A stretch of 64,000 nt of DNA from a virus. The stretch is from the IMG/VR virus record IMGVR_UViG_3300031951_000074, positions 1 to 64,000 of that record; one strand, 5' to 3'. Shown here piece after piece: positions 1 to 9,295 of this stretch. Both the position numbers and the translations under genes were made by a program. The notes beneath the pieces are model-generated. The model did not search any database and was not told where the DNA came from. It saw nothing but the letters and a program-made list of their open reading frames with translations. Each line of letters starts with the position of its first letter. The stretch's first letter is position 1.

Positions 1-18
1 GTGTGATTTTTTGCTAGT

Positions 19-138
19 TTTTCCACTGGCGCAGGCGGCTTTTGGGGAATAAATTTTTCAAGGTTTTCCACTGGCGCAGGTGGCCAACAACTTCAAAAAT
101 TTCAAGGTTTTCCACTGGCGCAGGTGGGTCACCTGCGC
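19..138. repeat. Three 20-bp direct repeats and a terminal hairpin
   Basis: A 20-bp unit, TTTTCCACTGGCGCAGG(C/T)GG, occurs at 19-38, 64-83 and 108-127, a period of 44-45 bp; copies 2 and 3 also share upstream flank. The last copy runs into a perfect inverted repeat, GCGCAGGTG at 118-126 and CACCTGCGC at 130-138. No gene overlaps it. A protein-binding array (origin, partition or packaging site) is possible, but function is unknown. Confidence 0.7.
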
Positions 139-151
139 TAATTAAGTGGTT

Positions 152-208
152 GCTTATATTCGTGAACGCTTATATAAGCCGACTCTTATATAAGCGGCGG
201 CTTATATA
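152..208. repeat. Iteron-like CTTATATAAGC repeats
   Basis: Four full or partial copies of a palindromic 12-mer, GCTTATATAAGC, lie at 152-160 (partial), 168-179, 185-195 and 200-208 (partial). The copies sit 12-17 bp apart. The stretch 1-407 holds no convincing gene: only these repeats, the 20-bp repeats to the left, and the first promoter/stem-loop cassette to the right. AT-rich iterated palindromes suit an origin or operator, which is inference. Confidence 0.55.
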
Positions 209-297
209 CACCCAAACCCTCCATTGTATCATGTGCCCGGGGGTGGGGTCAAGTGGTTTTTCTACCACACACGACTCGTGGGGTCTTTCGAAAAACC

Positions 298-336
298 TTG
301 ACAACCTCACCAAAATTATGATATAATTTTGGCGCC
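298..336 (+). promoter_or_regulatory. Cassette 1 plus-strand promoter in palindrome
   Basis: TTGACA (298-303), 18 bp, TATAAT (322-327), then GGCGCC. The -10 lies in CCAAAATTAT-GAT-ATAATTTTGG. It points into the 3' end of a minus-strand gene and no plus-strand gene follows. Confidence 0.75.
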
Positions 337-338
337 AT

Positions 339-373
339 AATACCCCTATAACCTGGTCAACAATAGGGGTATT
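339..373. terminator. Cassette 1 stem-loop
   Basis: An 11-bp perfect stem (339-349 with 363-373) encloses a 13-nt loop. That loop carries ACCTGGTCAAC, which resembles the GGTCAAC element found upstream of other cassettes. Unlike the other cassettes, the loop is long. Confidence 0.6.
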
Positions 374-379
374 AGGTCA

Positions 380-412
380 AATAATAAGGGGCTATAAGCC
401 CCTTTTATTATT
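380..412 (-). terminator. Terminator of the 54-aa gene
   Basis: GGGGCT-ATA-AGCCCC (388-402), extended by A-rich and T-rich arms, overlaps the stop codon of the small minus-strand gene at 408. Together with the cassette 1 hairpin it ends the leftmost minus-strand operon. Confidence 0.7.
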
Positions 413-572
413 CCCTGATATGTTCTAGTATATCCGTGGCCAATTCTTCCATTTCCTTTGTAATATCCACATCAGACATCGGCTGTAGAGCCAGTTTAAT
501 AATAAGTGCCAACCGTATCATTTCCTCATGACTGAGTACAATAATATATTCAGTTTTGGTTTCAATTTGCAT
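408..572 (-). CDS. Small hypothetical protein, 54 aa
   Basis: A short acidic ORF that starts at ATG 572 with a textbook AAGGAG Shine-Dalgarno about 9 nt upstream and ends inside the terminator at 380-412. The protein begins MQIETKTEYIIVL and has a C-terminal helix rich in Glu and Met; no family is recognised. It lies 29 bp downstream of the SprT-like gene and is probably co-transcribed with it. The strong ribosome binding site and close fit to the terminator are the main reasons to believe it is real. Confidence 0.7.
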   Translation of the reverse strand: MQIETKTEYIIVLSHEEMIRLALIIKLALQPMSDVDITKEMEELATDILEHIRE

Positions 573-601
573 TTTTGATTCTCCTTTTGAAAATGCGGAT
601 T

Positions 602-988
602 TTAGTCCAGATCAGTAACTGGTGAATATAATTCTCCCGTACTGAATCCTAGATCATTTAGTATCTTTTCTAGGTGTGTTGCAATTAATTGGAATCGGTC
701 ATCGTGATGATAGTTTTCATTAAAGCTGTTATCCTCGATCATTTTGGCATGGATTAATTCGTGTGCAATTACCCCATACACATCAAAATTGGATTCCAAT
801 GTCTGGCCTAAATTAATGACAATTTTGTGTTTTTGGAGACGGTTATTGCGAAACACAGTATCGCACCAACCTGCCAAACCACGATGAGTCTTATTATAAA
901 CTCGGGTTTTCAATACTACGTCAACGGGTTTGTGTATTTCCAATACAGAAACCACGGCTTGAATCAACAACAATACATCAGGTTTCAT
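602..988 (-). CDS. SprT-like zinc metalloprotease domain protein
   Basis: A 128-aa protein with HELIHAKM near residue 75, the HExxH zinc site of the SprT/WSS1 metallopeptidase fold, followed by His-His-Asp-Asp, which could supply the third ligand. It is shorter than bacterial SprT and lacks the C-terminal zinc ribbon, so it is a minimal phage version. Family members act on DNA-bound proteins; the substrate here is unknown. The ATG at 988 has no clear Shine-Dalgarno and sits about 9 nt after a stem-loop (997-1022), so expression may depend on read-through from the upstream exonuclease gene. A second, unrelated-looking HExxH protein lies at 4769-5134. Confidence 0.75.
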   Translation of the reverse strand: MKPDVLLLIQAVVSVLEIHKPVDVVLKTRVYNKTHRGLAGWCDTVFRNNRLQKHKIVINLGQTLESNFDVYGVIAHELIHAKMIEDNSFNENYHHDDRFQLIATHLEKILNDLGFSTGELYSPVTDLD

Positions 989-996
989 GGTGTTTT

Positions 997-1022
997 ATAT
1001 GGGGGTTATTAGCCCCCATATA
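997..1022. terminator. Stem-loop between exonuclease and SprT-like genes
   Basis: ATATGGGGG and CCCCCATAT form a hairpin just after the stop codon of the exonuclease gene. It has the form of the cassette stem-loops but no plus-strand promoter accompanies it, so it may be a leaky intra-operon terminator. Confidence 0.6.
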
Positions 1023-1025
1023 TAT

Positions 1026-1724
1026 TTACTTTGCGACGAAGTGTTCTTTTACTTGGTGTTTTTTCCAATCATATGGAATTACCTTTTCTCGCCAATCACG
1101 CTTTTTCAAGATATTGACCAGAACGGGAACTTCAAAATCCCGCGCATCTTCCAGTGCAGTATGTGGCTCAACCTTAAACTCGCCACACACAAAACCACAA
1201 ACTGCTTCCGCCGTGGTTTTGTAGGTCATGTTTTGGTTGACGGTAGGGGAATTGAATAGATGGTTATCGATGCAAAACTGCCGATAGCGCTTAGTATGGG
1301 TAATATTACCGATACTAGCTTGCCAAAGACAGAATTTGTCATTGAAGATATTCAAATCAATTCCGGTTTTGTCGCATTTGTCGCGATCAAAAGCCAGATT
1401 GTATGCGGTAAGGGTAGGGTTATACTTACCCACAGCCTGATTCAGCCATTTATTAATGGCAGCTGTCGAAGCCAGCATACGAACACCAGAATTCAGCATG
1501 GATACATATGCTGCTTTACGCTTTTCCAGTCCCTCATAACCCCAAATATCATTTGCACGTTTATCGTGGAACAATTCATATGTGCAGTAATGGTCTTTTA
1601 CCAATACTGCACATTGGTTGTAAATCTTGCCATCACGGTCAACAATAACCGCAGCAAAATCAGCTACAGTATCTTGCATTGTGGTTTCAGTATCGACCAC
1701 GCACCAGAATTGCTTTTTAGCCAT
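1026..1724 (-). CDS. DEDD-family 3'-5' exonuclease (RNase T/DnaQ-like)
   Basis: A 232-aa protein from ATG 1724, where AAGGTT serves as a weak Shine-Dalgarno. The N-terminal VVDTETT (residues about 10-16) is Exo I with the D-x-E metal ligands, AYNLAFDRDKCD is Exo II, and HTALEDARD near residue 205 is Exo III with the H-x4-D ending of DEDDh enzymes. The fold cuts nucleotides from 3' ends of DNA or RNA; the phage substrate cannot be told. A promoter (TTGCAG-17-TACACT) lies about 65 bp upstream. An extra in-frame stretch up to 1775 lacks a ribosome binding site and was left out. Confidence 0.85.
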   Translation of the reverse strand: MAKKQFWCVVDTETTMQDTVADFAAVIVDRDGKIYNQCAVLVKDHYCTYELFHDKRANDIWGYEGLEKRKAAYVSMLNSGVRMLASTAAINKWLNQAVGKYNPTLTAYNLAFDRDKCDKTGIDLNIFNDKFCLWQASIGNITHTKRYRQFCIDNHLFNSPTVNQNMTYKTTAEAVCGFVCGEFKVEPHTALEDARDFEVPVLVNILKKRDWREKVIPYDWKKHQVKEHFVAK

Positions 1725-1788
1725 ATTAACCTTCACACATGAAACCGGAAAGGGCCGGAGTCTCGCCCATGCCAACTGGCACCCGGCG

Positions 1789-1817
1789 AGTGTAACGCTT
1801 TTTGTGACTCACTGCAA
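1789..1817 (-). promoter_or_regulatory. Minus-strand promoter of exonuclease gene
   Basis: TTGCAG (1817-1812), 17 bp, TACACT (1794-1789), read on the minus strand. Confidence 0.6.
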
Positions 1818-1852
1818 GCCCCTACAGTGTGGTCAACTATTGACCAGGCGGC

Positions 1853-1889
1853 TTGACGGGGGCCAATTATATAATATATAATTGGCGCC
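1853..1889 (+). promoter_or_regulatory. Cassette 2 plus-strand promoter in palindrome
   Basis: TTGACG (1853-1858), 18 bp, TATAAT (1877-1882), GGCGCC. The palindrome is CCAATTATAT-AAT-ATATAATTGG. It is preceded at about 1831 by GGTCAACTATTGACC, itself an inverted repeat. Confidence 0.75.
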
Positions 1890-1914
1890 AATATAAGGGT
1901 TTACCCTTATATTG
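1889..1914. terminator. Cassette 2 stem-loop
   Basis: A perfect 12-bp stem (1889-1900 with 1903-1914) and a 2-nt loop. It ends 2 bp before the stop codon of the PQ-loop gene. Confidence 0.7.
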
Positions 1915-1916
1915 AT

Positions 1917-2165
1917 TTATTTCCTTTCCCAGATTTTATATCTTATCATTATGACGACGAAAAACAGATTTAGTATGTAGTTGAATAACAGTGGCATATC
2001 TCCTTTTGGAAATATATAAACAATGGTGAATAACTCCCCAAAGAACCAACAACCCAAGAAAAAGGGGTTTAATCCTCGGGCGTGGCCGTCTTTTGCACAT
2101 TGCAAAACCTGGGGAATTGCACATATTGCAAATAATATGCTACCAATCCAACCTATAGTTTCCAT
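1917..2165 (-). CDS. PQ-loop (SWEET/MtN3-like) membrane protein
   Basis: An 82-aa protein with about three hydrophobic helices. It starts METIGWIGSILFAICAIPQV, the Pro-Gln of the PQ-loop signature closing the first helix, then continues GLNPFFLGCWFFGEL, as in the second helix of semiSWEET-like half transporters. Such proteins work as dimers to move small solutes across membranes; a phage role is unknown. Its ATG lies beside the TAA of the phosphatase gene (TAAAATG), so translation is probably coupled. It would sit in the host inner membrane. Confidence 0.75.
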   Translation of the reverse strand: METIGWIGSILFAICAIPQVLQCAKDGHARGLNPFFLGCWFFGELFTIVYIFPKGDMPLLFNYILNLFFVVIMIRYKIWERK

Positions 2166-2166
2166 T

Positions 2167-2631
2167 TTAGTGACCCTGAACCGAGGGAATATAAACACCG
2201 CGGATATTGAAATGGTCGCAAACTGCTTTTAGGTAACTCACATTGTCTTCGTAAAATACACAGTCCGCAGTCTTGAATTGCTTCAAATTGAAAAACTTTT
2301 GCAAACCCTTGATTTTAAGAGTTTTGCCAGACTGGTTATCACCGTCACGACGCGAGATAAGGTAATCGGGGCTGCCGAGAATCTCACGGATAAACACATT
2401 ATCCAATTCGCGCACAATACGCGCAGTGGCGATAATTACATAAGTATTTGGATCTTGCAAGTCATTGCGATATTGAGACACAAGAGGAAGCAAACCATCT
2501 TGCATACACCGATTTTCATTATCGCGCCAGTATTGCAAATCGATTTTGACAATACCATTTTCTGTTATTGTGCGGTAACGGTGACTGCTATCAACGATCG
2601 TGCCATCCATGTCATATATCGCAACCTTCAT
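2167..2631 (-). CDS. HAD-family phosphatase, T4 Pnkp 3'-phosphatase-like
   Basis: 154 aa from ATG 2631 with an AAGGGG ribosome site. Residues 4-14, IYDMDGTIVDS, are HAD motif I with the nucleophile and acid/base Asp pair; VIIATAR is motif II; a Lys lies in GKTLKIKG; and FYEDNVSYL is motif IV. The layout matches phosphatase domains of phage polynucleotide kinase-type repair enzymes, which remove 3' phosphates, but no kinase P-loop is present. Nucleotidase activity is an alternative. First gene of a two-gene operon with the PQ-loop protein, driven by TTGTGT-17-TACACT. Confidence 0.8.
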   Translation of the reverse strand: MKVAIYDMDGTIVDSSHRYRTITENGIVKIDLQYWRDNENRCMQDGLLPLVSQYRNDLQDPNTYVIIATARIVRELDNVFIREILGSPDYLISRRDGDNQSGKTLKIKGLQKFFNLKQFKTADCVFYEDNVSYLKAVCDHFNIRGVYIPSVQGH

Positions 2632-2658
2632 TTTGAACCCCTTGTTTTGTAGAGCCCG

Positions 2659-2687
2659 AGTGTAGCACGTTCGGCCAGGCGACACAA
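2659..2687 (-). promoter_or_regulatory. Minus-strand promoter of phosphatase operon
   Basis: TTGTGT (2687-2682), 17 bp, TACACT (2664-2659) preceded by TGC (extended -10). Confidence 0.7.
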
Positions 2688-2734
2688 GCCCCCAACAATG
2701 ACCCTACGTCGTGGTCAACCATTGACCAGGCCGC

Positions 2735-2773
2735 TTGACACGGTTGCCAATATTATGTTATAATATTGGCGCC
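2735..2773 (+). promoter_or_regulatory. Cassette 3 plus-strand promoter in palindrome
   Basis: TTGACA (2735-2740), 18 bp, TATAAT (2759-2764), GGCGCC. Palindrome GCCAATATTAT-GTT-ATAATATTGGC. The element GGTCAACCATTGACC lies about 20 bp upstream. Confidence 0.75.
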
Positions 2774-2833
2774 CCTATTAGGGTTAACCCTAATAGGGGC
2801 TTTTAAATAATAAGGGGTATAACCCCTTATTAT
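2772..2833. terminator. Cassette 3 double stem-loop
   Basis: A perfect 14-bp-arm palindrome (2772-2785 with 2786-2799) is followed by a second hairpin, 2807-2818 with 2822-2833, abutting the stop codon of the 110-aa gene. Confidence 0.7.
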
Positions 2834-2834
2834 G

Positions 2835-3167
2835 TCACGCAATGGCTTTTGCAATATCTCGAGCCTTTGCACCCAGTCGGTTAATAATGGTTTCTGACCA
2901 GTGGCCGCCAATATTGCACGGCAATACTTGCATACTCGCCCAACGGTCCAACACAAGATACTCGGCAACATCGTAGCGATACAGGGATTCTTCTACGCTG
3001 GCAAGACTCACAGCAAATTTGCCAGTATCGATGCCGGTTTGCTTGATACCAACACAAACCCCCAGCAAGGGAAAATGAAAGATAACCACGTCGGGATAAT
3101 CCGCCCGCATATCTTGCAGAATATCCAATTCCGTATCGTTCAAGACGGTCTGGTTCACGTTACGCAT
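2835..3167 (-). CDS. Hypothetical protein, 110 aa
   Basis: Starts at ATG 3167 with AAAGGG 8 nt upstream. The sequence is mixed alpha/beta: an N-terminal acidic helix (LNDTELDILQDMRADYPD), then a hydrophobic strand (VVIFHFPLLGVCVGI) and a C-terminal helical part with GGHWSETIINRLG. No family is recognised. It is a single-gene unit between the HTH gene upstream and the cassette 3 terminator downstream. It contains no membrane segment long enough to be convincing. Confidence 0.75.
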   Translation of the reverse strand: MRNVNQTVLNDTELDILQDMRADYPDVVIFHFPLLGVCVGIKQTGIDTGKFAVSLASVEESLYRYDVAEYLVLDRWASMQVLPCNIGGHWSETIINRLGAKARDIAKAIA

Positions 3168-3201
3168 GATAAGCCCTTTCTATGGCTTGGTTGGGAAAAT
3201 G

Positions 3202-3252
3202 GTTTGCTTAGGGCATATTATACCCTAAGCAAACCCCTTTCGGGGTTTGCTT
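3202..3252 (-). promoter_or_regulatory. Two mutually exclusive hairpins with embedded TATAAT
   Basis: On the minus strand, hairpin A (3252-3227, AAGCAAACCCC with GGGGTTTGCTT) follows the HTH gene. Hairpin B (3233-3222 with 3213-3202) uses the same AAGCAAAC segment, so both cannot form at once. The loop of B contains TATAAT (3222-3217), a possible -10 for the 110-aa gene with a poor -35. Confidence 0.55.
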
Positions 3253-3255
3253 CAA

Positions 3256-3588
3256 TCATTCGATTGGACGGGAATTGGCCAGTGCATCAAAGATCGCCTT
3301 CAATGCACGTTTGTTAGCCTTGGTGAGGCTATCAACGTCAGGCTCAGACAGCATAAGGATCTTGCCGATAGCCTCGGCGTGTGCATCCTTCTTCACGGGA
3401 GACTCACCAGTCTTGGTAACATAGGTCTTCTTCTGGTAAACACCCTCACGACTCAGTTTCGCAACAATCGAGCGAACCGATTTACCGAGACTCTCGGCAA
3501 GGGCTTCGACCGTAGTGCCGGCCTTGTACGCTTCGACCAGAGCAGCAGTCTGCTCAGGAGTATAATTCACAACCTTTTCAGTGGCCAT
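3256..3588 (-). CDS. Helix-turn-helix DNA-binding protein, copy 1
   Basis: 110 aa from ATG 3588. Residues about 9-50 (NYTPEQTAALVEAY, then VEALAESLGKSVRSIVAKL) look like a helix-turn-helix in which the second helix follows an LGKSVRS turn. The next part, SREGVY-KKTYVTKTGE, is strongly conserved with the 106-aa protein at 5511-5831. The family is common among phage hypothetical regulators; targets are unknown. Two stacked minus-strand promoters lie upstream, one of them near-perfect (TTGACG-17-TATAAT), the strongest minus promoter in this arm. It is a plausible regulator of the repeated promoter cassettes, which is inference only. Confidence 0.8.
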   Translation of the reverse strand: MATEKVVNYTPEQTAALVEAYKAGTTVEALAESLGKSVRSIVAKLSREGVYQKKTYVTKTGESPVKKDAHAEAIGKILMLSEPDVDSLTKANKRALKAIFDALANSRPIE

Positions 3589-3661
3589 TTTCAGTTTCTC
3601 CGAGTTAACACGCATGGGGAAATTTTGGCAATGCCGGGCAATCCCCTCAACCTATGCTGAT

Positions 3662-3690
3662 ATTATACAGGGTCAACATTCCCCCGTCAA
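3662..3690 (-). promoter_or_regulatory. Proximal promoter of HTH gene
   Basis: TTGACG (3690-3685), 17 bp, TATAAT (3667-3662): close to sigma70 consensus. Confidence 0.75.
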
Positions 3691-3734
3691 GTATTGTGTT
3701 TTCTTTCCTTTCTGTTCGTCGTCGTCAGGGACAC

Positions 3735-3763
3735 AGTATAACGGTTTTTCAGCCTGGACACAA
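3735..3763 (-). promoter_or_regulatory. Distal promoter of HTH gene
   Basis: TTGTGT (3763-3758), 17 bp, TATACT (3740-3735), followed by GTGT. The leader has an AAAGGAAAG ribosome site but no usable start codon behind it, as if a gene once started here. Confidence 0.7.
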
Positions 3764-3791
3764 TACCCTAGTGCATCGTGGGGTCTTTGCG

Positions 3792-3835
3792 CCAGGCGGT
3801 GATCGGCGGTTAACCAGGCGGTGATCGGCAGTTAA
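3792..3835. repeat. Tandem 22-bp repeat
   Basis: Two copies of CCAGGCGGTGATCGGC(G/A)GTTAA at 3792-3813 and 3814-3835 with one mismatch, followed by CCAGG. It sits between the distal HTH promoter and cassette 4. Confidence 0.8.
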
Positions 3836-3852
3836 CCAGGGGTAAGTCCCTA

Positions 3853-3890
3853 TTGACAGGTGTATTAGAACATGATATAATTTTGGCGCA
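3853..3890 (+). promoter_or_regulatory. Cassette 4 plus-strand promoter (no palindrome)
   Basis: TTGACA (3853-3858), 17 bp, TATAAT (3876-3881), GGCGCA. The -35/-10 and TATAATTTTGGCGC are kept although the palindrome is absent, which supports a real plus-strand promoter. Confidence 0.8.
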
Positions 3891-3983
3891 CCCCATAGGT
3901 AACACCTATGGGGTGCGGCGGCTCAATAGGTAACACCTATTGAGCCACAAACAAAAAAGCCGACAAAAACAGTCGGCTTTTTT
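3888..3983 (+). ncRNA. Candidate three-hairpin small RNA
   Basis: A transcript from the cassette 4 promoter would start near 3888. It would contain a 13-bp stem (3888-3900 with 3904-3916), a 12-bp stem (3920-3931 with 3935-3946) and a terminator (3953-3964 with 3972-3983, ending in six T). The first two hairpins share the AATAGGT-AAC-ACCTATT type apex. No ORF lies between 3884 and 4068, so this roughly 96-nt unit is not antisense to a gene. An empty cassette that lost its gene is the alternative. Confidence 0.45.
3953..3983. terminator. Strong bidirectional terminator
   Basis: AAAAAAGCCGAC and GTCGGCTTTTTT with a 7-nt loop give A/T tracts on both sides. Confidence 0.85.
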
Positions 3984-3992
3984 GTGTGGCCC

Positions 3993-4031
3993 TTGACAGG
4001 GCCCAAAATTATATGTTATAATTTTGGCGCA
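3993..4031 (+). promoter_or_regulatory. Cassette 5 plus-strand promoter in palindrome
   Basis: TTGACA (3993-3998), 18 bp, TATAAT (4017-4022), GGCGCA. Palindrome CCAAAATTATA-TGT-TATAATTTTGG, 11-bp arms. Confidence 0.75.
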
Positions 4032-4059
4032 AATTAGCCGCCTGGCCAGGCGGCTAATT
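4032..4059. terminator. Cassette 5 stem-loop
   Basis: A perfect 28-bp palindrome (14-bp arms, no spare loop) with a GC-rich apex, GCCTGGCCAGGC. The stem sequence is unlike any other copy. The next gene's stop codon is 9 bp away. Confidence 0.65.
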
Positions 4060-4068
4060 ATACTGCGA

Positions 4069-4233
4069 TTATTCGTCGGTGTTGACGACGATGGTGGAAA
4101 CGTGGGGGTCAGAAGCGGGAACAGCTTCCTCCAGCATCTTGACCCTATACGACACCCAGTTGATGCTGGTGTAGTATTCCTGATGATGCTTGAAGTGCTC
4201 TTGGTCCCACCATTCGATCATGTAAACCTTCAT
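4069..4233 (-). CDS. Hypothetical protein, 54 aa
   Basis: Starts at ATG 4233 after AGGAAAGGAACCC. The product begins MKVYMIEWWDQEHFK and is rich in His, Trp and Tyr in the first half and acidic at the end. No family is recognised. It forms a single-gene unit behind a weak TATACT-type promoter (4263-4291) whose leader, TGTTCTCTGCAACAGGAAAGGAAC, is nearly the same as leaders of other small genes in this arm. Confidence 0.7.
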   Translation of the reverse strand: MKVYMIEWWDQEHFKHHQEYYTSINWVSYRVKMLEEAVPASDPHVSTIVVNTDE

Positions 4234-4262
4234 TTGGGTTCCTTTCCTGTTGCAGAGAACAC

Positions 4263-4291
4263 AGTATAACGCTTTTTAAGCCACACAGCAC
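4263..4291 (-). promoter_or_regulatory. Minus-strand promoter of 54-aa gene
   Basis: TATACT (4268-4263) matches the local -10. The -35 at 17 bp (GTGCTG) is poor. Confidence 0.45.
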
Positions 4292-4328
4292 ATACCCGAG
4301 CGCATCGTGGGGTCTTTTAGCCAGGCCC

Positions 4329-4367
4329 TTGACAGGGCCCAAAATTATATGTTATAATTTTGGCGCC
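4329..4367 (+). promoter_or_regulatory. Cassette 6 plus-strand promoter in palindrome
   Basis: TTGACA (4329-4334), 18 bp, TATAAT (4353-4358), GGCGCC. The core from TTGACA to GGCGC is identical to cassette 5. Confidence 0.75.
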
Positions 4368-4398
4368 ATAATAACCCTATATATTATAGGGTTATTAT
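4368..4398. terminator. Cassette 6 stem-loop
   Basis: A perfect 14-bp stem (4368-4381 with 4385-4398) and 3-nt loop, 7 bp from the stop codon of the 53-aa gene. Confidence 0.7.
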
Positions 4399-4405
4399 GT
4401 GGTCG

Positions 4406-4567
4406 TTAGAAAAACCCCATGTTGATGATTTTGTAGTCCAGTTTGGGGCACTTTTTGCCTAAATTCTTTTTCAATTCTACACAATCCCTTTCTAAATCCG
4501 ACAGGTTTTGATAGTGACACACCAAAACATTATCGAAAAACAAACCCCAGACTTTTACAACACCCAT
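4406..4567 (-). CDS. Hypothetical protein, 53 aa
   Basis: Its ATG at 4567 overlaps the end of the upstream membrane-protein gene by 13 nt, so translation is probably coupled. The protein begins MGVVKVWGLFFDNVLVC, a beta-strand-like stretch, then has a charged helix (SDLERDCVELKKNLG) and two Cys. No family is recognised. It is the last gene of the operon before the cassette 6 terminator. Confidence 0.65.
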   Translation of the reverse strand: MGVVKVWGLFFDNVLVCHYQNLSDLERDCVELKKNLGKKCPKLDYKIINMGFF

Positions 4568-4767
4568 TTTGAAATCCCCACCAGGTTAGCGCACAAGAAA
4601 AACCCATTCAATACACTGAGGGATTTATCCCTTTTCGTGATCCCGATATATAGCCACGATATCGAACCAATAATAAACAAACTGTATCCCAAAATATATA
4701 TCTGAAACGCAACCAGAAAACTGCCGATAACCGAGCTTATAGTGCCTAGCCACGATATATACCCCAT
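4555..4767 (-). CDS. Small membrane protein, 70 aa
   Basis: Two to three hydrophobic helices: WLGTISSVIGSFLVAFQ, then YSLFIIGSISWLYIGI, then a short charged loop (TKRDKS) and a final hydrophobic helix. The opening GYISWLGTISSVIGS recalls the helix 1 pattern of the PQ-loop protein at 1917-2165, but the Pro-Gln is missing. It starts one base after the stop codon of the metalloprotease-like gene. An inner-membrane location is expected; function is unknown. Confidence 0.7.
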   Translation of the reverse strand: MGYISWLGTISSVIGSFLVAFQIYILGYSLFIIGSISWLYIGITKRDKSLSVLNGFFLCANLVGISKWVL

Positions 4768-4768
4768 T

Positions 4769-5134
4769 TTAGACCCGTTTGTAGTTTACCATGTTATGGC
4801 ATCGTTCTGGAGGCAGACCTAATTCTTTCATAATCTTTTTCCAGCTTTTGCCATGCCCAAAATCATTATACACCAGAAAAGCCACACAGTGTGCCAATTC
4901 ATGGGGAATAATAACCCTACAAAATTCGTCGGGATATTGTTCGAACAATTCAACCGACAAATCTATACACTGCGGATTGCGCTCAATAAAAGCACGTCCT
5001 GCGGTAGTTTTCAGCCGTTTATTCAAAACTACCGCAGGAGCAGTTTTGGTTAAGCTGGGGTACAGAAAGCACAGTATATCCCAAGTGTCTTGGGCACTGC
5101 GGTCTGCCATTTCTTGCATTGTGGGGGCTTTCAT
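4769..5134 (-). CDS. SprT-like zinc metallopeptidase domain protein
   Basis: 121 aa with IIPHELAHCVAF near residue 79 (HExxH) and, about 16 residues later, GHGKSWKKIMKELG, whose His is the usual third zinc ligand in the SprT-like fold. It ends with Cys-His and so lacks a full zinc ribbon. It is the first gene of a three-gene operon with two small downstream proteins. The -10 (TAGAAT) lies only 7 nt from the ATG, so the mRNA may be leaderless. It shares little with the SprT-like protein at 602-988 beyond the motif. Confidence 0.8.
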   Translation of the reverse strand: MKAPTMQEMADRSAQDTWDILCFLYPSLTKTAPAVVLNKRLKTTAGRAFIERNPQCIDLSVELFEQYPDEFCRVIIPHELAHCVAFLVYNDFGHGKSWKKIMKELGLPPERCHNMVNYKRV

Positions 5135-5141
5135 GGGCTGG

Positions 5142-5170
5142 ATTCTACTACAAAAATTTGGCTATCACAA
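5142..5170 (-). promoter_or_regulatory. Promoter giving a leaderless mRNA
   Basis: TTGTGA (5170-5165), 17 bp, TAGAAT (5147-5142). Only 7 nt separate the -10 from the start codon at 5134. Confidence 0.6.
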
Positions 5171-5205
5171 GACCCCTCGACCAGGTCAACTATTCCACAT
5201 GGGGC

Positions 5206-5244
5206 TTGACACGGTTGCCAATATTATATTATAATATTGGCGCC
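5206..5244 (+). promoter_or_regulatory. Cassette 7 plus-strand promoter in palindrome
   Basis: TTGACA (5206-5211), 18 bp, TATAAT (5230-5235), GGCGCC. Palindrome GCCAATATTAT-ATT-ATAATATTGGC, as in cassette 3. Confidence 0.75.
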
Positions 5245-5270
5245 AGTATTAGGGTTTACCCTAATACTGG
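5243..5270. terminator. Cassette 7 stem-loop
   Basis: A perfect 13-bp stem (5243-5255 with 5258-5270) and 2-nt loop. It ends the four-gene operon 5276-6144. Confidence 0.7.
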
Positions 5271-5275
5271 CCTTA

Positions 5276-5467
5276 TTAAATAGGTACGACTTTGTAGACA
5301 GTATGTTGGACGACCCTTACAGGAATACCGTCGAATACTTGAAGATGTTCCATATTCAGGGGTTTGTCGCCAGACAACAATTCCAATTCTTCCACAAATT
5401 CTTCCACCGTTGAACCTGCGCCAATATACTCGGCCCTATCGCTGGCAATATAGATTCCAAACAGCAT
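5276..5467 (-). CDS. Hypothetical protein, 63 aa
   Basis: Starts at ATG 5467 with AAAGGAAAC as ribosome site. It begins MLFGIYIASDRAEYIGAGST, then an acidic helix (VEEFVEELELL), then strands ending RVVQHTVYKVVPI. The alternation of short strands around one helix suggests a small alpha/beta domain. No family is recognised. It is the last gene of the operon that includes the second HTH protein. Confidence 0.7.
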   Translation of the reverse strand: MLFGIYIASDRAEYIGAGSTVEEFVEELELLSGDKPLNMEHLQVFDGIPVRVVQHTVYKVVPI

Positions 5468-5510
5468 GATGTTTCCTTTCTTGAAAAAGGGGGATATTAT
5501 CCCCCGGATA

Positions 5511-5831
5511 TCACACGATGAGCGAGAGCTTTTGCAGTACCTTTTGCAATGCGGTTTTGTTCGCCTTGGTGAGACTGCTAATCTCGGGTTCACTCAATTC
5601 ACAAAGAGCCCCGATTTTGTCTGCAAGCTCTTCTTTCGAAACAACTGTTTCACCAGTTTTGGTGACATACTCCTTTTTCCTGTAAACACCTTCCCGGCTG
5701 AGTTTAGCTACCACGCTGCGGACACTCTTGCCCAGCGTGGCCGCAATACTTTCTACGGGAACACCCTTGCTATACCCGTCCAGCATTTGTTGGACCTGCT
5801 CGGGAGTATAGTTTGCGGTTTTCTCAGTCAT
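5511..5831 (-). CDS. Helix-turn-helix DNA-binding protein, copy 2
   Basis: 106 aa from ATG 5831 (AAAGGAAAG). It is clearly a paralogue of the protein at 3256-3588: both have NYTPEQ near the start, LGKSVRS(V/I)VAKLSREGVY in the middle, YVTKTGE next, and LTKANK near the C-terminus. Differences concentrate in the first helix and in the linker, so the two copies may recognise different sites or form heterodimers. Middle gene of an operon driven by TTGTGT-17-TATACT. Confidence 0.8.
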   Translation of the reverse strand: MTEKTANYTPEQVQQMLDGYSKGVPVESIAATLGKSVRSVVAKLSREGVYRKKEYVTKTGETVVSKEELADKIGALCELSEPEISSLTKANKTALQKVLQKLSLIV

Positions 5832-5846
5832 CTTCTTTCCTTTCAA

Positions 5847-5942
5847 TCAAAGACCATCGCCGACAACAATAGCAATTCCCATTGCAAGAATCGCCACCCA
5901 GAATGGGCTAGTAGCCCAGATAATCAGAAAAAGATCAGACAT
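5847..5942 (-). CDS. 31-aa membrane peptide
   Basis: ATG 5942 follows AGAGGGG at good spacing. The peptide is MSDLFLIIWATSPFWVAILA followed by a Gly/Val-rich end: almost wholly hydrophobic, so a single-span inner-membrane peptide. It is too short to assign. The gene sits 15 nt upstream of the HTH copy 2 start and one base downstream of the 66-aa gene. Confidence 0.6.
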   Translation of the reverse strand: MSDLFLIIWATSPFWVAILAMGIAIVVGDGL

Positions 5943-5943
5943 T

Positions 5944-6144
5944 TTAACCCCTCTTTGAATAAACAATCAGACCCGTGAGATACTCGCGCTTACCCGCCAT
6001 GTAGCTGCGACGCACCACATAGGACTTCAAGCCCTTACTGTTGGCGGCTTCGATAGCCCCCGTCAGCAAGCTGTGCGACTCCAGCACAGCGGGCTTGTGA
6101 GCGACTTCACTAACATACACAGTGTAAACAGGCTCGTAACCCAT
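5944..6144 (-). CDS. Hypothetical protein, 66 aa
   Basis: The start chosen is ATG 6144, which has GGAGA 6 nt upstream. An upstream in-frame ATG at 6174 lies only 7 nt from the -10 and would give a leaderless 76-aa form. The product begins MGYEPVYTVYVSEV and ends in a basic strand-rich part (YVVRRSYMAGKREYLTGLIVY). No family is recognised. First gene of a four-gene operon. Confidence 0.7.
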   Translation of the reverse strand: MGYEPVYTVYVSEVAHKPAVLESHSLLTGAIEAANSKGLKSYVVRRSYMAGKREYLTGLIVYSKRG

Positions 6145-6181
6145 CGAAGGTCTCCGGTTGTTCGTCGTTTCCATGGGACAC

Positions 6182-6210
6182 AGTATAACGCTTTTTCGGC
6201 CTGGACACAA
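6182..6210 (-). promoter_or_regulatory. Promoter of the 5276-6144 operon
   Basis: TTGTGT (6210-6205), 17 bp, TATACT (6187-6182), then GTGT. Upstream GACCCCAC is shared with several other minus promoters of this arm. Confidence 0.7.
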
Positions 6211-6261
6211 TACCCTAGTGTGTTGTGGGGTCTTTGAGCCAGGCCTAGGGGTAAGTCCCTA

Positions 6262-6299
6262 TTGACAGCAAGAATTTGGTGTGGTATAATTTTGGCGCC
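6262..6299 (+). promoter_or_regulatory. Cassette 8 plus-strand promoter (no palindrome)
   Basis: TTGACA (6262-6267), 17 bp, TATAAT (6285-6290), GGCGCC. Like cassette 4 it keeps promoter and GGCGCC but not the palindrome, and its upstream AGGGGTAAGTCCCTATTGACAG matches cassette 4. Confidence 0.8.
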
Positions 6300-6332
6300 A
6301 CAAAAACCCTACAGATTGTAGGGTTTTTGTGG
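6298..6332. terminator. Cassette 8 stem-loop, gene-less
   Basis: A perfect 16-bp stem (6298-6313 with 6317-6332) and 3-nt loop, the longest of the family. Only 8 bp separate it from the -35 of cassette 9, so no gene belongs to this copy. Confidence 0.75.
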
Positions 6333-6340
6333 CCAGGCCG

Positions 6341-6379
6341 TTGACACGGCCCAAAATTATGTGCTATAATTTTGGCGCC
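6341..6379 (+). promoter_or_regulatory. Cassette 9 plus-strand promoter
   Basis: TTGACA (6341-6346), 18 bp, TATAAT (6365-6370, extended TGC before it), GGCGCC. Palindrome arms are 10 bp around GTGCT. Confidence 0.75.
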
Positions 6380-6380
6380 C

Positions 6381-6409
6381 CAAAGCCCCTGCACATTGCA
6401 GGGGCTTTG
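6381..6409. terminator. Cassette 9 stem-loop
   Basis: A perfect 13-bp stem (6381-6393 with 6397-6409) with AAGCCCC/GGGGCTT core, 2 bp from the stop codon of the 55-aa gene. Confidence 0.75.
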
Positions 6410-6411
6410 TG

Positions 6412-6579
6412 TTACTTTGACCGGCTGGCCCGAGCCGCCTTGACCTGGCGGTTACGCTCCGCCTTTTCGCGACGGTTACGCTCCAGCCGAGCCTTGCGCT
6501 CTCGTTCATCGGCACGCTTGTGAGCAACAGGAGCCAGACCCAGACCAGCACGCAGTTCGTTGATTTGATTCAGGTTCAT
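6412..6579 (-). CDS. Small basic coiled-coil protein, 55 aa
   Basis: Starts at ATG 6579 with TAGGAG 8-9 nt upstream. After MNLNQINELRAGLGLAPVAH the rest is a charged helix dominated by Arg, Lys, Glu and Ala (about 15 Arg). It probably forms one long helix and may bind nucleic acid. No family is recognised. Second gene of a two-gene operon with the 66-aa gene. Confidence 0.7.
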   Translation of the reverse strand: MNLNQINELRAGLGLAPVAHKRADERERKARLERNRREKAERNRQVKAARASRSK

Positions 6580-6616
6580 TTCAGTCACTCCTAGAAAAGC
6601 CCTTTCGGGCAGGTAA

Positions 6617-6817
6617 TCACTTGATCCTGGCCACAGCCATTTCAGTGTGGCCGACCACGGCATCGACGACCTTTTCGGAATCGTCCATAGCATCCGCCAG
6701 CATTCCGGACAGGTATCCGACAATAAAGGTTTCGGTAGCATCGCCAGACCAACCCTCAGAAGTCTTAGCATCACGAAGGGCTTGAATCAGGGCACGGGCT
6801 TTGTCGATGTTGGTCAT
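6617..6817 (-). CDS. Hypothetical protein, 66 aa, paralogue A
   Basis: Starts at ATG 6817 (AGAGGAACC). A mostly helical protein with the central segment ETFIVGYLSGMLADAM, matched by ESFVVGYLTGMLASAV in the protein at 7003-7194; the two are tandem paralogues. The opening MTNIDKARALIQALRDA is an amphipathic helix. No family is recognised. The gene is led by TTGCAC-16-TATACT. Confidence 0.75.
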   Translation of the reverse strand: MTNIDKARALIQALRDAKTSEGWSGDATETFIVGYLSGMLADAMDDSEKVVDAVVGHTEMAVARIK

Positions 6818-6847
6818 TTCGGGTTCCTCTTGTGTTGCAGTAGACAC

Positions 6848-6875
6848 AGTATAGCACAACACCAAGCCCGTGCAA
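6848..6875 (-). promoter_or_regulatory. Promoter of the 6412-6817 operon
   Basis: TTGCAC (6875-6870), 16 bp, TGC-TATACT (6853-6848). Confidence 0.65.
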
Positions 6876-6921
6876 CACCTAAATTTTAGCCCTTTGACCA
6901 GGTCAACCATTGTGGAAGCGC

Positions 6922-6960
6922 TTGACCCGGCCCAAAATTATGTGCTATAATTTTGGCGCC
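6922..6960 (+). promoter_or_regulatory. Cassette 10 plus-strand promoter
   Basis: TTGACC (6922-6927), 18 bp, TATAAT (6946-6951), GGCGCC. The core matches cassette 9. Confidence 0.7.
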
Positions 6961-6962
6961 AT

Positions 6963-6989
6963 AAAGCCCCCACAATCTGTGGGGGCTTT
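6963..6989. terminator. Cassette 10 stem-loop
   Basis: A perfect 12-bp stem (6963-6974 with 6978-6989). The next stop codon is 14 bp away. Confidence 0.7.
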
Positions 6990-7002
6990 GATTGATTGGT
7001 GA

Positions 7003-7194
7003 TTACTTTGACTTCAAGTCATTCGTGTGCCATTCCACGCTACGCGCCACGTCCTCGTTTTCGCGCACAGCACTGGCCAGCATACCCGTCAGGTAACCGA
7101 CAACAAAGGACTCGGAATAGCCCTTCTTGGCAGCGTGCTCGCGGGCGGCCTGGAGCAGGGCCTGGACTTGGTTGTAGGCTTCGGTAGCAGTCAT
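7003..7194 (-). CDS. Hypothetical protein, 63 aa, paralogue B
   Basis: Starts at ATG 7194 (AAAGGAAC). A paralogue of the 66-aa protein at 6617-6817, sharing the central (I/V)VGYL(S/T)GMLA core and a following acidic helix. It begins MTATEAYNQVQALLQAARE. Having its own promoter and cassette, it looks like a duplication of the whole gene-plus-cassette unit. Function is unknown. Confidence 0.75.
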   Translation of the reverse strand: MTATEAYNQVQALLQAAREHAAKKGYSESFVVGYLTGMLASAVRENEDVARSVEWHTNDLKSK

Positions 7195-7224
7195 CTCGTG
7201 TTCCTTTCCTGTTGCAGTGAACGC

Positions 7225-7252
7225 AGTATAGCACAACACCATGCTCATGCAA
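7225..7252 (-). promoter_or_regulatory. Promoter of the 63-aa gene
   Basis: TTGCAT (7252-7247), 16 bp, TGC-TATACT (7230-7225). Near-identical to the promoter at 6848-6875. Confidence 0.65.
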
Positions 7253-7299
7253 CATCTAAAATTTAACCCCTCAGTGTGGTCAACTATCCAGGCACCCGC

Positions 7300-7336
7300 T
7301 TGACAGGACCCAATTATATAATATATAATTGGCGCC
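7300..7336 (+). promoter_or_regulatory. Cassette 11 plus-strand promoter in palindrome
   Basis: TTGACA (7300-7305), 18 bp, TATAAT (7324-7329), GGCGCC. Palindrome identical to cassette 2. Confidence 0.75.
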
Positions 7337-7360
7337 CGAATAGGGGTTTACCCCTATTCG
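7337..7360. terminator. Cassette 11 stem-loop
   Basis: A perfect 11-bp stem (7337-7347 with 7350-7360) directly touching the stop codon at 7361. Confidence 0.7.
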
Positions 7361-7492
7361 TTATTCTTCATATACTATGAAGTATGGAGTTTCCCCATAA
7401 TCTCCAGAGTATTCAATGGGATGGTCTGGATTGAACAGAGTCATATCAATACCAGTATCCCAGAAAACATCAAAAACCCAGTCTTGATACAT
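7361..7492 (-). CDS. Hypothetical protein, 43 aa
   Basis: ATG 7492 follows AAAGGAAG. The peptide begins MYQDWVFDVFWDTG and is acidic and aromatic (many Tyr, Phe, Trp, Asp), with no Lys or Arg at all. That composition resembles small phage proteins that mimic nucleic acid or bind host enzymes, but this is only a resemblance. Last gene of a three-gene operon. Confidence 0.65.
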   Translation of the reverse strand: MYQDWVFDVFWDTGIDMTLFNPDHPIEYSGDYGETPYFIVYEE

Positions 7493-7502
7493 ATACTTCC
7501 TT

Positions 7503-7727
7503 TCAATAGTCCAACCAATCGCCCATACTCTCGATTTTGGCGGCTGCTTCTTCCACACTAATAACGTGTGGAATGTGCGATACCCAAGTCGGGCTATCGG
7601 GGCCAATATACATAACACAGCACCAGCGGCCCGTAGCACCACGGGCCAGACAATGGATGCCCTGTATGGGCCGGGGATACTTCGTACCCGTGATATCACA
7701 CTCGGTGATAGTGCCAAAAACCATCAT
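7503..7727 (-). CDS. Hypothetical protein, 74 aa
   Basis: ATG 7727 has AGGAG 8 nt upstream. It begins MMVFGTITECDITGTKYP and ends in an acidic helix (VISVEEAAAKIESMGDWL). Three Cys and several short strands suggest a compact alpha/beta domain; no family is recognised. It lies between the 64-aa and 43-aa genes with gaps of 20 and 10 bp. Confidence 0.7.
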   Translation of the reverse strand: MMVFGTITECDITGTKYPRPIQGIHCLARGATGRWCCVMYIGPDSPTWVSHIPHVISVEEAAAKIESMGDWLDY

Positions 7728-7747
7728 GGTATATACTCCTGATTTGA

Positions 7748-7942
7748 TTACGCCATTACCCGAGCGATATACGCCTGGGCCTGTTCCACAGTCTTAAAAG
7801 ACTTGACCTGCTTGGTGACCCAGTAGGCATCCTGCCGGATGGTGTCAAACTTGAACACCTGCACTTGGACAGTGCGAGTAGCCCACGGTACAACAAACGC
7901 CCTGACAGTGCCAAGGGCCGGGGGAGTGTAGGTGTTGGTCAT
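7748..7942 (-). CDS. Hypothetical protein, 64 aa
   Basis: ATG 7942 follows AGAGGAAC. It begins MTNTYTPPALGTVRAFVVPW and ends with a helix (VKSFKTVEQAQAYIARVM). The central part, strand-rich and basic, ends before a VxxAQAYIA helix often seen in small phage proteins. First gene of the operon 7361-7942. No function can be given. Confidence 0.7.
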   Translation of the reverse strand: MTNTYTPPALGTVRAFVVPWATRTVQVQVFKFDTIRQDAYWVTKQVKSFKTVEQAQAYIARVMA

Positions 7943-7972
7943 CTCGTGTTCCTCTTGTCTTGCTGTGAACAC

Positions 7973-8000
7973 AGTATAGCACAACACCACACCAGCACAA
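7973..8000 (-). promoter_or_regulatory. Promoter of the 7361-7942 operon
   Basis: TTGTGC (8000-7995), 16 bp, TGC-TATACT (7978-7973). Confidence 0.65.
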
Positions 8001-8046
8001 CATCAAAATTTTAACCCCTCGACCAGGTCAACTATTGTGCGGGGGC

Positions 8047-8085
8047 TTGACCGGGCCACCAAAATTATGATATAATTTTGGCGCC
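8047..8085 (+). promoter_or_regulatory. Cassette 12 plus-strand promoter in palindrome
   Basis: TTGACC (8047-8052), 18 bp, TATAAT (8071-8076), GGCGCC. Palindrome as in cassette 1. Confidence 0.7.
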
Positions 8086-8109
8086 ACAATAGGGGTAAAC
8101 CCCTATTGT
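8086..8109. terminator. Cassette 12 stem-loop
   Basis: A perfect 11-bp stem (8086-8096 with 8099-8109) directly touching the stop codon at 8110. Confidence 0.7.
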
Positions 8110-8244
8110 TTATTCTGTTAGTTCTCTGTATACCTGATCATAACTAACACAGTATTCCCAGGCTGCATTTCTGCAAGCATCAAAGAAACTCATGTGATAT
8201 ACAGACATCAATTGCTTTGCGTAACACACGGCAGCTTCAAGCAT
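8110..8244 (-). CDS. Hypothetical protein, 44 aa
   Basis: ATG 8244 follows AAAGGAAC. The sequence is MLEAAVCYAKQLMSVYHMSF and onward, a helical peptide rich in Ala, Cys and Tyr that resembles a small helical bundle subunit. No family is recognised. It lies 10 bp downstream of the 67-aa gene. Confidence 0.6.
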   Translation of the reverse strand: MLEAAVCYAKQLMSVYHMSFFDACRNAAWEYCVSYDQVYRELTE

Positions 8245-8254
8245 TTTGTTCCTT

Positions 8255-8458
8255 TCAAACCCGAAACGTGGGGTTGACACCCACCTTGTCAGCCACCATC
8301 CACACGTACTCCACGTACACTTCTTCTTCGCGGGCAGCCTGGGCCGCCACGTCCAGCTCCCAGTTGGCTTGGTCGTATTCTTCACGAATGGTCATCTCAG
8401 CCATGTCCAGCTCAAAGGACTCAATGTCTTCACGGGTCATGTCGGTGGGGTAGTACAT
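8255..8458 (-). CDS. Acidic helical protein, 67 aa
   Basis: ATG 8458 with AAGGAG 8 nt upstream. A strongly acidic, mostly helical protein: MYYPTDMTREDIESFELDMA, then repeated Glu-rich turns and a C-terminal VADKVGVNPTFRV. It could be an anti-host protein or DNA mimic by charge alone, but no family is recognised. First gene of a two-gene operon led by TTGACA-18-TATACT. Confidence 0.7.
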   Translation of the reverse strand: MYYPTDMTREDIESFELDMAEMTIREEYDQANWELDVAAQAAREEEVYVEYVWMVADKVGVNPTFRV

Positions 8459-8490
8459 CTTGGGGGCTCCTTGTCTGTGTCAGTAGAGTT

Positions 8491-8520
8491 AGTATAACGC
8501 AAAACAGCGTGTTGTGTCAA
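8491..8520 (-). promoter_or_regulatory. Promoter of the 8110-8458 operon
   Basis: TTGACA (8520-8515), 18 bp, TATACT (8496-8491). Confidence 0.7.
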
Positions 8521-8554
8521 ACCCGATCTTTGTGTGGGGTCTTTGACCAGGCCC

Positions 8555-8593
8555 TTGACCGGGCCACCAAAATTATGATATAATTCTGGCGCC
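8555..8593 (+). promoter_or_regulatory. Cassette 13 plus-strand promoter, degenerate palindrome
   Basis: TTGACC (8555-8560), 18 bp, TATAAT (8579-8584), TCTGGCGCC. A T-to-C change after the -10 breaks the palindrome but leaves the promoter intact. Confidence 0.7.
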
Positions 8594-8594
8594 A

Positions 8595-8623
8595 CAAAGC
8601 CCCTACAGATTGTAGGGGCTTTG
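8595..8623. terminator. Cassette 13 stem-loop
   Basis: A perfect 13-bp stem (8595-8607 with 8611-8623), 5 bp from the stop codon at 8629. Confidence 0.7.
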
Positions 8624-8628
8624 GTCAA

Positions 8629-8871
8629 TCACACCAAGGTGTACCGACCCGCATCGTACTCACGAAGCACAGCACGACCGATGTTGGCGTTAGTATCCAT
8701 ATCGAGCCCCCACAACACAACCACGCCGGAAATGTGGCGTGAGGCATCGTGAAAGAAAACCTCTACATCGTCCAGGTTCAGCTCTACCCCATCCTGTTCC
8801 TCGAACACAATGTCCAAGAATTGTTGATTGTTGTAGACCCGGCCGGTGTTGTAAACAATGTGCTTCTTCAT
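8629..8871 (-). CDS. Hypothetical acidic protein, 80 aa
   Basis: ATG 8871 has AGGAG 8-9 nt upstream. It begins MKKHIVYNTGRVYNNQQFLD, then an acidic beta-rich core (IVFEEQDGVELNLDDVEVFF) and ends with a short strand pair. It is probably a small beta-sandwich or barrel; no family is recognised. Second gene of an operon with the 28-aa peptide, closed by the cassette 13 stem-loop. Confidence 0.7.
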   Translation of the reverse strand: MKKHIVYNTGRVYNNQQFLDIVFEEQDGVELNLDDVEVFFHDASRHISGVVVLWGLDMDTNANIGRAVLREYDAGRYTLV

Positions 8872-8882
8872 CTTTGTTCTCC

Positions 8883-8969
8883 TTACATGAAGCGCTGAAC
8901 AAACCAAACCTTCAGCCAGAAAACTATCACAATCGTTTCGACGGCTGCAATGATTTCTGCTGTGGTCAT
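8883..8969 (-). CDS. 28-aa membrane peptide
   Basis: ATG 8969 follows AGAGGAAC at normal spacing. The peptide starts MTTAEIIAAVETIVIVFWLK and is a single hydrophobic helix with a basic end, so a tiny inner-membrane peptide is expected. It lies 11 bp upstream of the 80-aa gene and directly behind the promoter at 9001-9030. Confidence 0.6.
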   Translation of the reverse strand: MTTAEIIAAVETIVIVFWLKVWFVQRFM

Positions 8970-9000
8970 CTTGGTGTTCCTCTCGTGTTGCAGTGATGAC

Positions 9001-9030
9001 AGTATAGCGCAAAACACCACAGTCAGTCAA
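9001..9030 (-). promoter_or_regulatory. Promoter of the 8629-8969 operon
   Basis: TTGACT (9030-9025), 18 bp, TATACT (9006-9001). Confidence 0.65.
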
Positions 9031-9064
9031 ACCCGAGTTTTATGTGGGGTTTTTGAGTGGCCCC

Positions 9065-9094
9065 TTGACGTGGCCCAGGAACACGTGGTACAAT
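9065..9094 (+). promoter_or_regulatory. Plus-strand promoter at arm boundary
   Basis: TTGACG (9065-9070), 18 bp, TACAAT (9089-9094). It resembles the cassette promoters but has no GGCGCC or stem-loop and faces the terminase genes. The 326-bp gap 8970-9295 holds only promoters on both strands; a packaging site is possible here but not visible. Confidence 0.5.
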
Positions 9095-9237
9095 AGGGGC
9101 GGTTAACAGACTAGTTACTTTACTGAGTGTGCTGCGCCCTCCAACACGGCCTCTTTTAAAAAAATATCACACAACACTTTCGGTGCCAAAACCCAGCAAA
9201 TCCTTTTTAAAAATAATACCCAAGTCAAAAATAGTGG

Positions 9238-9266
9238 TTGAATTTTTTTAACACATGTTTTATAAT
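9238..9266 (+). promoter_or_regulatory. Promoter of the packaging/head operon
   Basis: TTGAAT (9238-9243), 17 bp, TATAAT (9261-9266), 29 bp before the small terminase start. Confidence 0.65.
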
Positions 9267-9295
9267 TCAGTTTTACACTACCCACAACACCAACC

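Follow-up and report, generated by a model that had tools for sequence, protein, structure and literature searches.

Why should a consensus promoter be placed so that it fires back towards the gene that it follows? This question is raised by a virus sequence, IMG/VR record IMGVR_UViG_3300031951_000074, of which positions 1 to 64,000 were analysed (the window; plus strand as given). Between positions 298 and 8623, among small genes read from the minus strand, lie thirteen repeated elements, here called cassettes. Each joins a sigma70 promoter sequence on the plus strand to the motif GGCGC and a perfect stem-loop, and most carry a second hairpin formed around the -10 hexamer. It appears to punctuate the genes in a way not previously described, with part of a promoter folded into a hairpin.

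The cassettes and their family

The core pattern TTGAC-N16..20-TATAAT-N0..12-GGCGC has 13 exact matches in the window, every one of them on the plus strand; 100 dinucleotide shuffles of the 64 kb gave no match. This bears out the 13 plus-strand promoter positions given in a preliminary description of this DNA. The core scan found no other copy in the 91,614-bp virus record to which the window belongs. Contig L108, which is 100% identical to window positions 1-9300 and hence not independent, shows another promoter of the family about 50 bp to the left of the window's start. TTGACA and TATAAT are matched at 12 of 12 bases in nine of the 13 cassettes, and most have an extended TG. Both hexamers, 16-19 bp apart, are kept in relatives, as a sigma70 promoter requires.

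A perfect stem-loop (hairpin T), with arms of 10-15 bp, follows the core in all 13 cassettes, and in 11 of them another hairpin (P) overlaps the -10 hexamer, perfect in ten and with a single mismatch in one. The preliminary description had recognized one perfect stem-loop but overlooked P, and there are usually two palindromes per cassette. It also held that cassettes 4 and 8 have no palindrome; what these two lack is P, and the downstream T is present in both. The cassettes are as follows.

298-374, plus strand: cassette 1; promoter 298-327, P 310-332, GGCGC 331-335, T 338-374 (loop 13)
1853-1914, plus strand: cassette 2; P 1863-1885, GGCGC 1884-1888, T 1889-1914
2735-2798, plus strand: cassette 3; P 2747-2769, GGCGC 2768-2772, T 2773-2798; in the predicted DNA fold P and T are contiguous, with no spacer
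3853-3914, plus strand: cassette 4; without P; T 3890-3914
3993-4059, plus strand: cassette 5; P 4003-4027, GGCGC 4026-4030, T 4032-4059
4329-4399, plus strand: cassette 6; P 4339-4363, GGCGC 4362-4366, T 4367-4399
5206-5269, plus strand: cassette 7; P 5218-5240, GGCGC 5239-5243, T 5244-5269
6262-6331, plus strand: cassette 8; without P; GGCGC 6294-6298, T 6299-6331; leads a tandem pair with cassette 9
6341-6409, plus strand: cassette 9; P 6351-6375 (loop 5), GGCGC 6374-6378, T 6381-6409
6922-6989, plus strand: cassette 10; P 6932-6956 (loop 5), GGCGC 6955-6959, T 6963-6989
7300-7360, plus strand: cassette 11; P 7310-7332, GGCGC 7331-7335, T 7337-7360
8047-8109, plus strand: cassette 12; P 8059-8081, GGCGC 8080-8084, T 8086-8109
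8555-8623, plus strand: cassette 13; P 8567-8589 (one A-C mismatch), GGCGC 8588-8592, T 8595-8623

The core was found in at least 118 IMG/VR stretches, and 327 unique cassettes were extracted for family counts. In each of 16 long records the cassettes form one block, confined to a single strand in 15; the exception (G005) has one unlike match elsewhere, on the other strand. The reversed pattern, used as a control, has no match in these 16 records.

A hairpin around the -10 hexamer

The layout of P is CC-x'-ATTAT, a short loop, and ATAAT-x-GG, with the -10 hexamer in the right arm and the closing GG forming the start of GGCGC. Among 270 distinct cores from relatives, x varies widely (TTT, T, TT, ATT, TTC, TCT, C, G, TTTT, ATC and others). 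In tests that used distinct sequences and ignored phylogeny, an exact mirror of x was found in the spacer of 124 of these cores, as against 52.5 in permutations (maximum 68), and a mirrored x other than TTT in 39, where 3.6 were expected (permutation maximum 10). Of 41 hairpins in which the hexamer itself has changed, to TAAAAT or TACAAT, 40 have a left arm changed to match. When 53 distinct 25-mers were aligned and counted, 95.5% of the cells were paired and four pairs had double changes; the covariation score is 0.172, compared with 0.078 after shuffling and at most 0.054 when slid. The suggestion that stems change in sequence while their pairing persists is upheld.

Several features bear on the form in which P is paired. 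In relatives its arms shift by two bases and its loop varies while the -35/-10 spacing stays constant, which argues for pairing within a strand or in a cruciform rather than for the operator of a dimeric protein. Interior mismatches on the promoter strand are G-T in 13 cases and A-C in 2, a small number that suggests folding of the plus strand; those in T have no strand preference (G-T 6, A-C 8). Fold prediction for single-stranded DNA gives P and T as two neighbouring hairpins, with z about -7. The mirrored -10 might also suggest a second, minus-strand promoter, an interpretation that we reject because the mirrored hexamer has no -35 at the proper distance. No mirrored -10 promoters were found in the corresponding region of T5 or Vibrio phage D149.

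Is the promoter itself conserved, or only the structure? At GGCGC sites, promoter cores are nearly all-or-none: 344 plus 66 have a perfect -35, and 9 have a single mismatch in it. P with GGCGC is almost never seen without a -35 in relatives, and decayed promoters with retained hairpins, the case that would have spoken against promoter conservation, were sought in P-bearing relatives and not found. The distance from the -10 to GGCGC is not constant in the family (1-4 nt), and the position of GGCGC is locked to the base of P, not to the -10. Four distant relatives (G002, G003, G005 and G010) keep promoter and GGCGC and mostly have no P, which may therefore be a lineage-specific feature added to an older core. 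At two sites without P in G003 (L133, positions 2932 and 4377), the spacer ATTGGAG could pair with CTCCAAT directly after GGCGC, with the -10 in the loop.

Hairpin T and the genes around it

A T stem score of 9 or more is reached by 62% of the stretches downstream of cores and by 2.3% of controls. Terminator-like signals occur on the plus strand in 116 of 223, versus 34 in controls, and on the minus strand in 84, versus 40. At the base of the stem, 48% of positions on the 5' side are A and 48% on the 3' side are T. With its near-symmetric stem, its A-rich and T-rich base and signals on both strands, T looks like a bidirectional terminator, albeit a weak one. The eight nucleotides after the stem contain a mean of 2.7 T, and five or more in 16%. 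The plus-strand enrichment also makes plausible the earlier proposal of a short RNA that ends near the stem-loop. Beyond T of cassette 4 come a second hairpin and a canonical terminator on the plus strand, which ends at about 3985; the predicted RNA (3880-3985, plus strand) would be about 100 nt long with three hairpins, two of them sharing AGGTAACACCT.

The claim that the promoter points against its flanking genes holds family-wide. With genes called by a simple script that combined open reading frames and ribosome sites, 237 of the 327 unique cassettes sit between two genes oriented against the promoter. Antisense genes make up 251 of the 272 nearby downstream genes, and their median distance from GGCGC is 77 nt. 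In the window, the wide gaps between minus-strand genes carry cassettes, and most of the tight ones do not. Several cassettes have promoter-like minus-strand sites on their far side, an arrangement that would place two promoters back to back. The genes concerned are as follows.

408-8871, minus strand: small early genes facing the cassettes
602-988 and 4769-5134, minus strand: SprT-like genes, within the cassette block
2167-2631, minus strand: homologue of T5 dmp, within the cassette block
3256-3588 and 5511-5831, minus strand: D5-like DNA-binding paralogues (phrog_323), within the cassette block

Small paralogous D5/GcrA-like proteins are also encoded beside the block in L108, past the window's left end; such proteins are candidates for binding to the cassettes.

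A block in the first-entering DNA of a T5-like phage?

By its gene content, the source virus is a T5-like phage of 91.6 kb: T5 terminase, portal and D-gene block are present in order, as in Demerecviridae, and among cultured phages the closest found are T5-like, with proteins about 40-49% identical. A T5-like terminase (54-68% identity) was found in 35 of 37 records tested, the other two being contigs of 20 and 55 kb. Judged from these records, the element is spread through a widespread group of uncultured T5-like viruses, in which nearly all of the small early genes are followed by one; blastn found none in cultured phages. A host or cellular origin is rejected, as the 8 matches in a scan of bacterial genome contigs were singles from unrelated bacteria, roughly as many as chance would produce.

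Two other observations concern the phages themselves. The window's record encodes a permuted transfer-messenger RNA of betaproteobacterial type with the tag ANDEVFALAA (L130:11764-12173, record positions 75764-76173, minus strand), near which lie about 18 transfer RNA genes; it is unusual for a T5-like phage and a strong clue to a betaproteobacterial host. In G011, where the cassette block straddles both contig ends, the terminase gene (94289-95554) has two in-frame TAG codons and is otherwise intact, possibly marking an amber-recoded relative.

In five genomes the terminase is followed by the cassette block, including the dmp homologue, and in the examples read the far edge of the block is either a TTTTGCACTGGCGCAG array or a GCACTGTATAATGGGCGC-type promoter. 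In T5 (AY543070), dmp and the injection-stop and nick region lie in the terminal repeat, which is first into the cell. From the gene order and this one gene, the cassette block is probably the terminal-repeat, first-entering pre-early region; tblastn found no homologues of T5 A1 and A2. The major nicks of T5 fit the consensus R/GCGCRGG and have no known function (PMC3517423); the fit was also checked on the T5 annotation and sequence (AY543070). The T5 terminase and D genes run opposite to their orientation in the window, so that T5's nicked minus strand corresponds to the window's plus strand. On this strand, an array stands at the edge of the block.

25-146, plus strand: three units of CACTGGCGCAGG, with hairpin GCGCAGGTGggtCACCTGCGC after the third; resembles the nick array of the T5 terminal repeat

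The three units, at 25-122, fit the full R/GCGCRGG consensus; the 13 cassettes do not, sharing only RGCGC, and thus have the short R/GCGC motif on the nicked strand. Neither this match nor the block's correspondence to the T5 terminal-repeat region had been pointed out in the preliminary description. The array sequence TTTTGCACTGGCGCAG(G) resembles the T5 terminal-repeat nick context GGATTTGCACAAAA/GCGCAGGGC, and in relatives there are units, for example GGATTTGCACTGGCGCA, that are similar to the T5 terminal-repeat site GGATTTGCACAAAA/GCGCAGGGCAATTGCCCTGC, with a hairpin following in both. The array of TTTTCCACTGGCGCAGG units as a whole, at 25-146 and in relatives, resembles the nick and injection-stop region of the T5 terminal repeat.

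Gene turnover at cassettes

The proposal that genes are gained and lost at cassettes is supported. Relative to the window, L011 has one additional gene with its cassette, the break falling where T of cassette 12 ends (8107/8110), and a 759-bp unit that differs between L089 and L061 has cassettes at its bounds. In chained alignments, 118 breakpoints lie at cassettes where 50 were expected, a count that ignores kinship, so that shared ancestry makes its nominal probability too small. Raw BLAST ends gave no enrichment, because paralogous cassette matches swamp the signal. In 19 related loci (for example L020, L100 and L035) there are parS-like sites (TGTTTCACGTGAAACA), 25 of the 26 no farther than 200 bp from a cassette; they are absent from the window's record.

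What do the cassettes do?

The reading that we favour, tentatively and at somewhat less than an even chance, is that cassettes act as boundary elements where pre-early transcription units end, each coupling a bidirectional terminator to an opposing promoter. From its parts we infer the following course of events. T would act as a weak terminator in both directions by virtue of its A-rich 5' and T-rich 3' stem base. The strong sigma70 promoter beyond T would fire toward the 3' end of the preceding gene and yield a short structured RNA; its polymerase would block leftward read-through, and transcripts from both sides would stop at T. Each small gene would in this way be shielded from the next gene's own promoter. 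P probably gates the promoter, its cruciform or single-strand fold concealing the -10. That opposing polymerases can end transcription by colliding is documented (PMC10349824).

Several points weigh against this boundary model. A terminator by itself needs no consensus promoter, no P and no GGCGC, and the recurrence of GGCGC without a promoter in the adjacent array implies a role beyond transcription. Many T hairpins have no clean U-tract outside the stem, and ordinary hairpins without a cassette stand at some unit ends in the block (about 1000 and at 3200-3240). The promoterless GGCGC makes DNA processing the main rival. Perhaps the cassette is mainly a T5-type site at which GGCGC is nicked on the plus strand (R/GCGC) between the fold-back structures P and T, with the promoter opening the region or making an RNA (as an R-loop) that aids nicking, the start of replication or staged entry of the DNA. 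This we consider unlikely. The T5 consensus and its strand, the adjacent array with several units followed by a hairpin as in T5, the tie of GGCGC to the base of P, the G-T excess and the predicted pair of single-stranded hairpins would all fit, and a nick at the cassette GGCGC is our hypothesis on this basis. However, GGCGC is just five bases, no promoter accompanies the T5 nick sites, of which only some have a hairpin, and the T5 nicks themselves serve no known function (see above). Both ideas could be combined in a composite device of a new kind that unites the promoter, a T5-type nick site and, on the nicked strand, both hairpins. Nicking or supercoiling would extrude P and T, switch the promoter and expose the template strand, and in the first-entering DNA transcription would be coupled to entry or replication; this is again an unlikely proposal, held with the same reserve.

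It is harder to see the cassettes as sources of dedicated small regulatory or antisense RNAs. Consensus promoters with plus-strand terminator-like signals would suit such a role, and the predicted RNA of cassette 4 has a structural resemblance to RNAI that is below threshold (E 0.012). Yet the stems and loops of T share no sequence between many copies or relatives, an RNA of this kind would end before, or barely within, the 3' end of the antisense gene, and no Rfam family was found in the block at gathering score. The small-RNA role that had been suggested for this DNA is therefore improbable, and for the companion idea of a polymerase decoy there is no evidence. Retention as recombination seeds for swapping small genes, in the manner of the PeSL cassettes of T4-type phages, is a shade more doubtful still. 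Within the window, intergenic modules of about 150-180 bp reach 70-80% similarity to one another, and the L011 and L089 differences and the breakpoint count (see above) also speak for it. Recombination needs shared sequence, however, while T stems diverge and P keeps its pairing rather than its sequence, and shuffling accounts for neither the perfect promoter nor its orientation; gene shuffling is probably a by-product. Could P instead be a symmetric operator, bound by a dimeric phage repressor to silence the promoter? Its dyad spans the -10, and the block encodes D5-like phrog_323 proteins (see above), but the halves of P match each other with no common half-site, and variation in arm length (x of 1-4 nt) and span (mostly 22-25 nt) breaks the phasing that a dimer would need. 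As neither a common half-site nor a fixed spacing was found, a protein operator is rejected as very unlikely.

Comparison with known systems

If the boundary model is correct, the cassettes are a means of punctuating genes that recurs under strong selection across a large group of uncultured phages, and they provide a natural example in which a covarying hairpin holds the -10 hexamer. They would also offer a lead on two open questions in T5, the purpose of the site-specific nicks and the control of the first-step-transfer DNA, and compact insulators built this way would be useful genetic parts.

Early promoter plus stem-loop (PeSL) cassettes are found in T4-type phages, where the promoter drives the next downstream gene. 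Both systems consist of repeated promoter and stem-loop modules between small early genes and are linked to gene gain and loss, an association that holds here. The promoter in the T5-like phages, however, stands upstream of the stem-loop and faces the genes, with 251 of 272 antisense rather than driven by it, and GGCGC and a second hairpin at the -10 are added. Ju, Li and Liu (2019) reportedly described bidirectional terminators aided by opposing transcription. These likewise have a near-symmetric stem-loop where opposing transcripts meet, but the opposing transcripts there come from convergent genes, whereas here a dedicated promoter without a gene lies next to the stem-loop.

The major interruption sites of T5 (R/GCGCRGG) share with the cassettes RGCGC, the genome strand, the neighbourhood of the terminal repeat and, at the terminal-repeat nick, a hairpin directly after it. 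The cassettes differ in adding a promoter and P and in usually missing the RGG tail, and their nicking is a prediction. Finally, engineered promoters exist that are switched by cruciform extrusion, and they too have a palindrome over the -10 and spacer; the cassettes differ in being natural, repeated and covarying, and in being coupled to GGCGC and a second hairpin.

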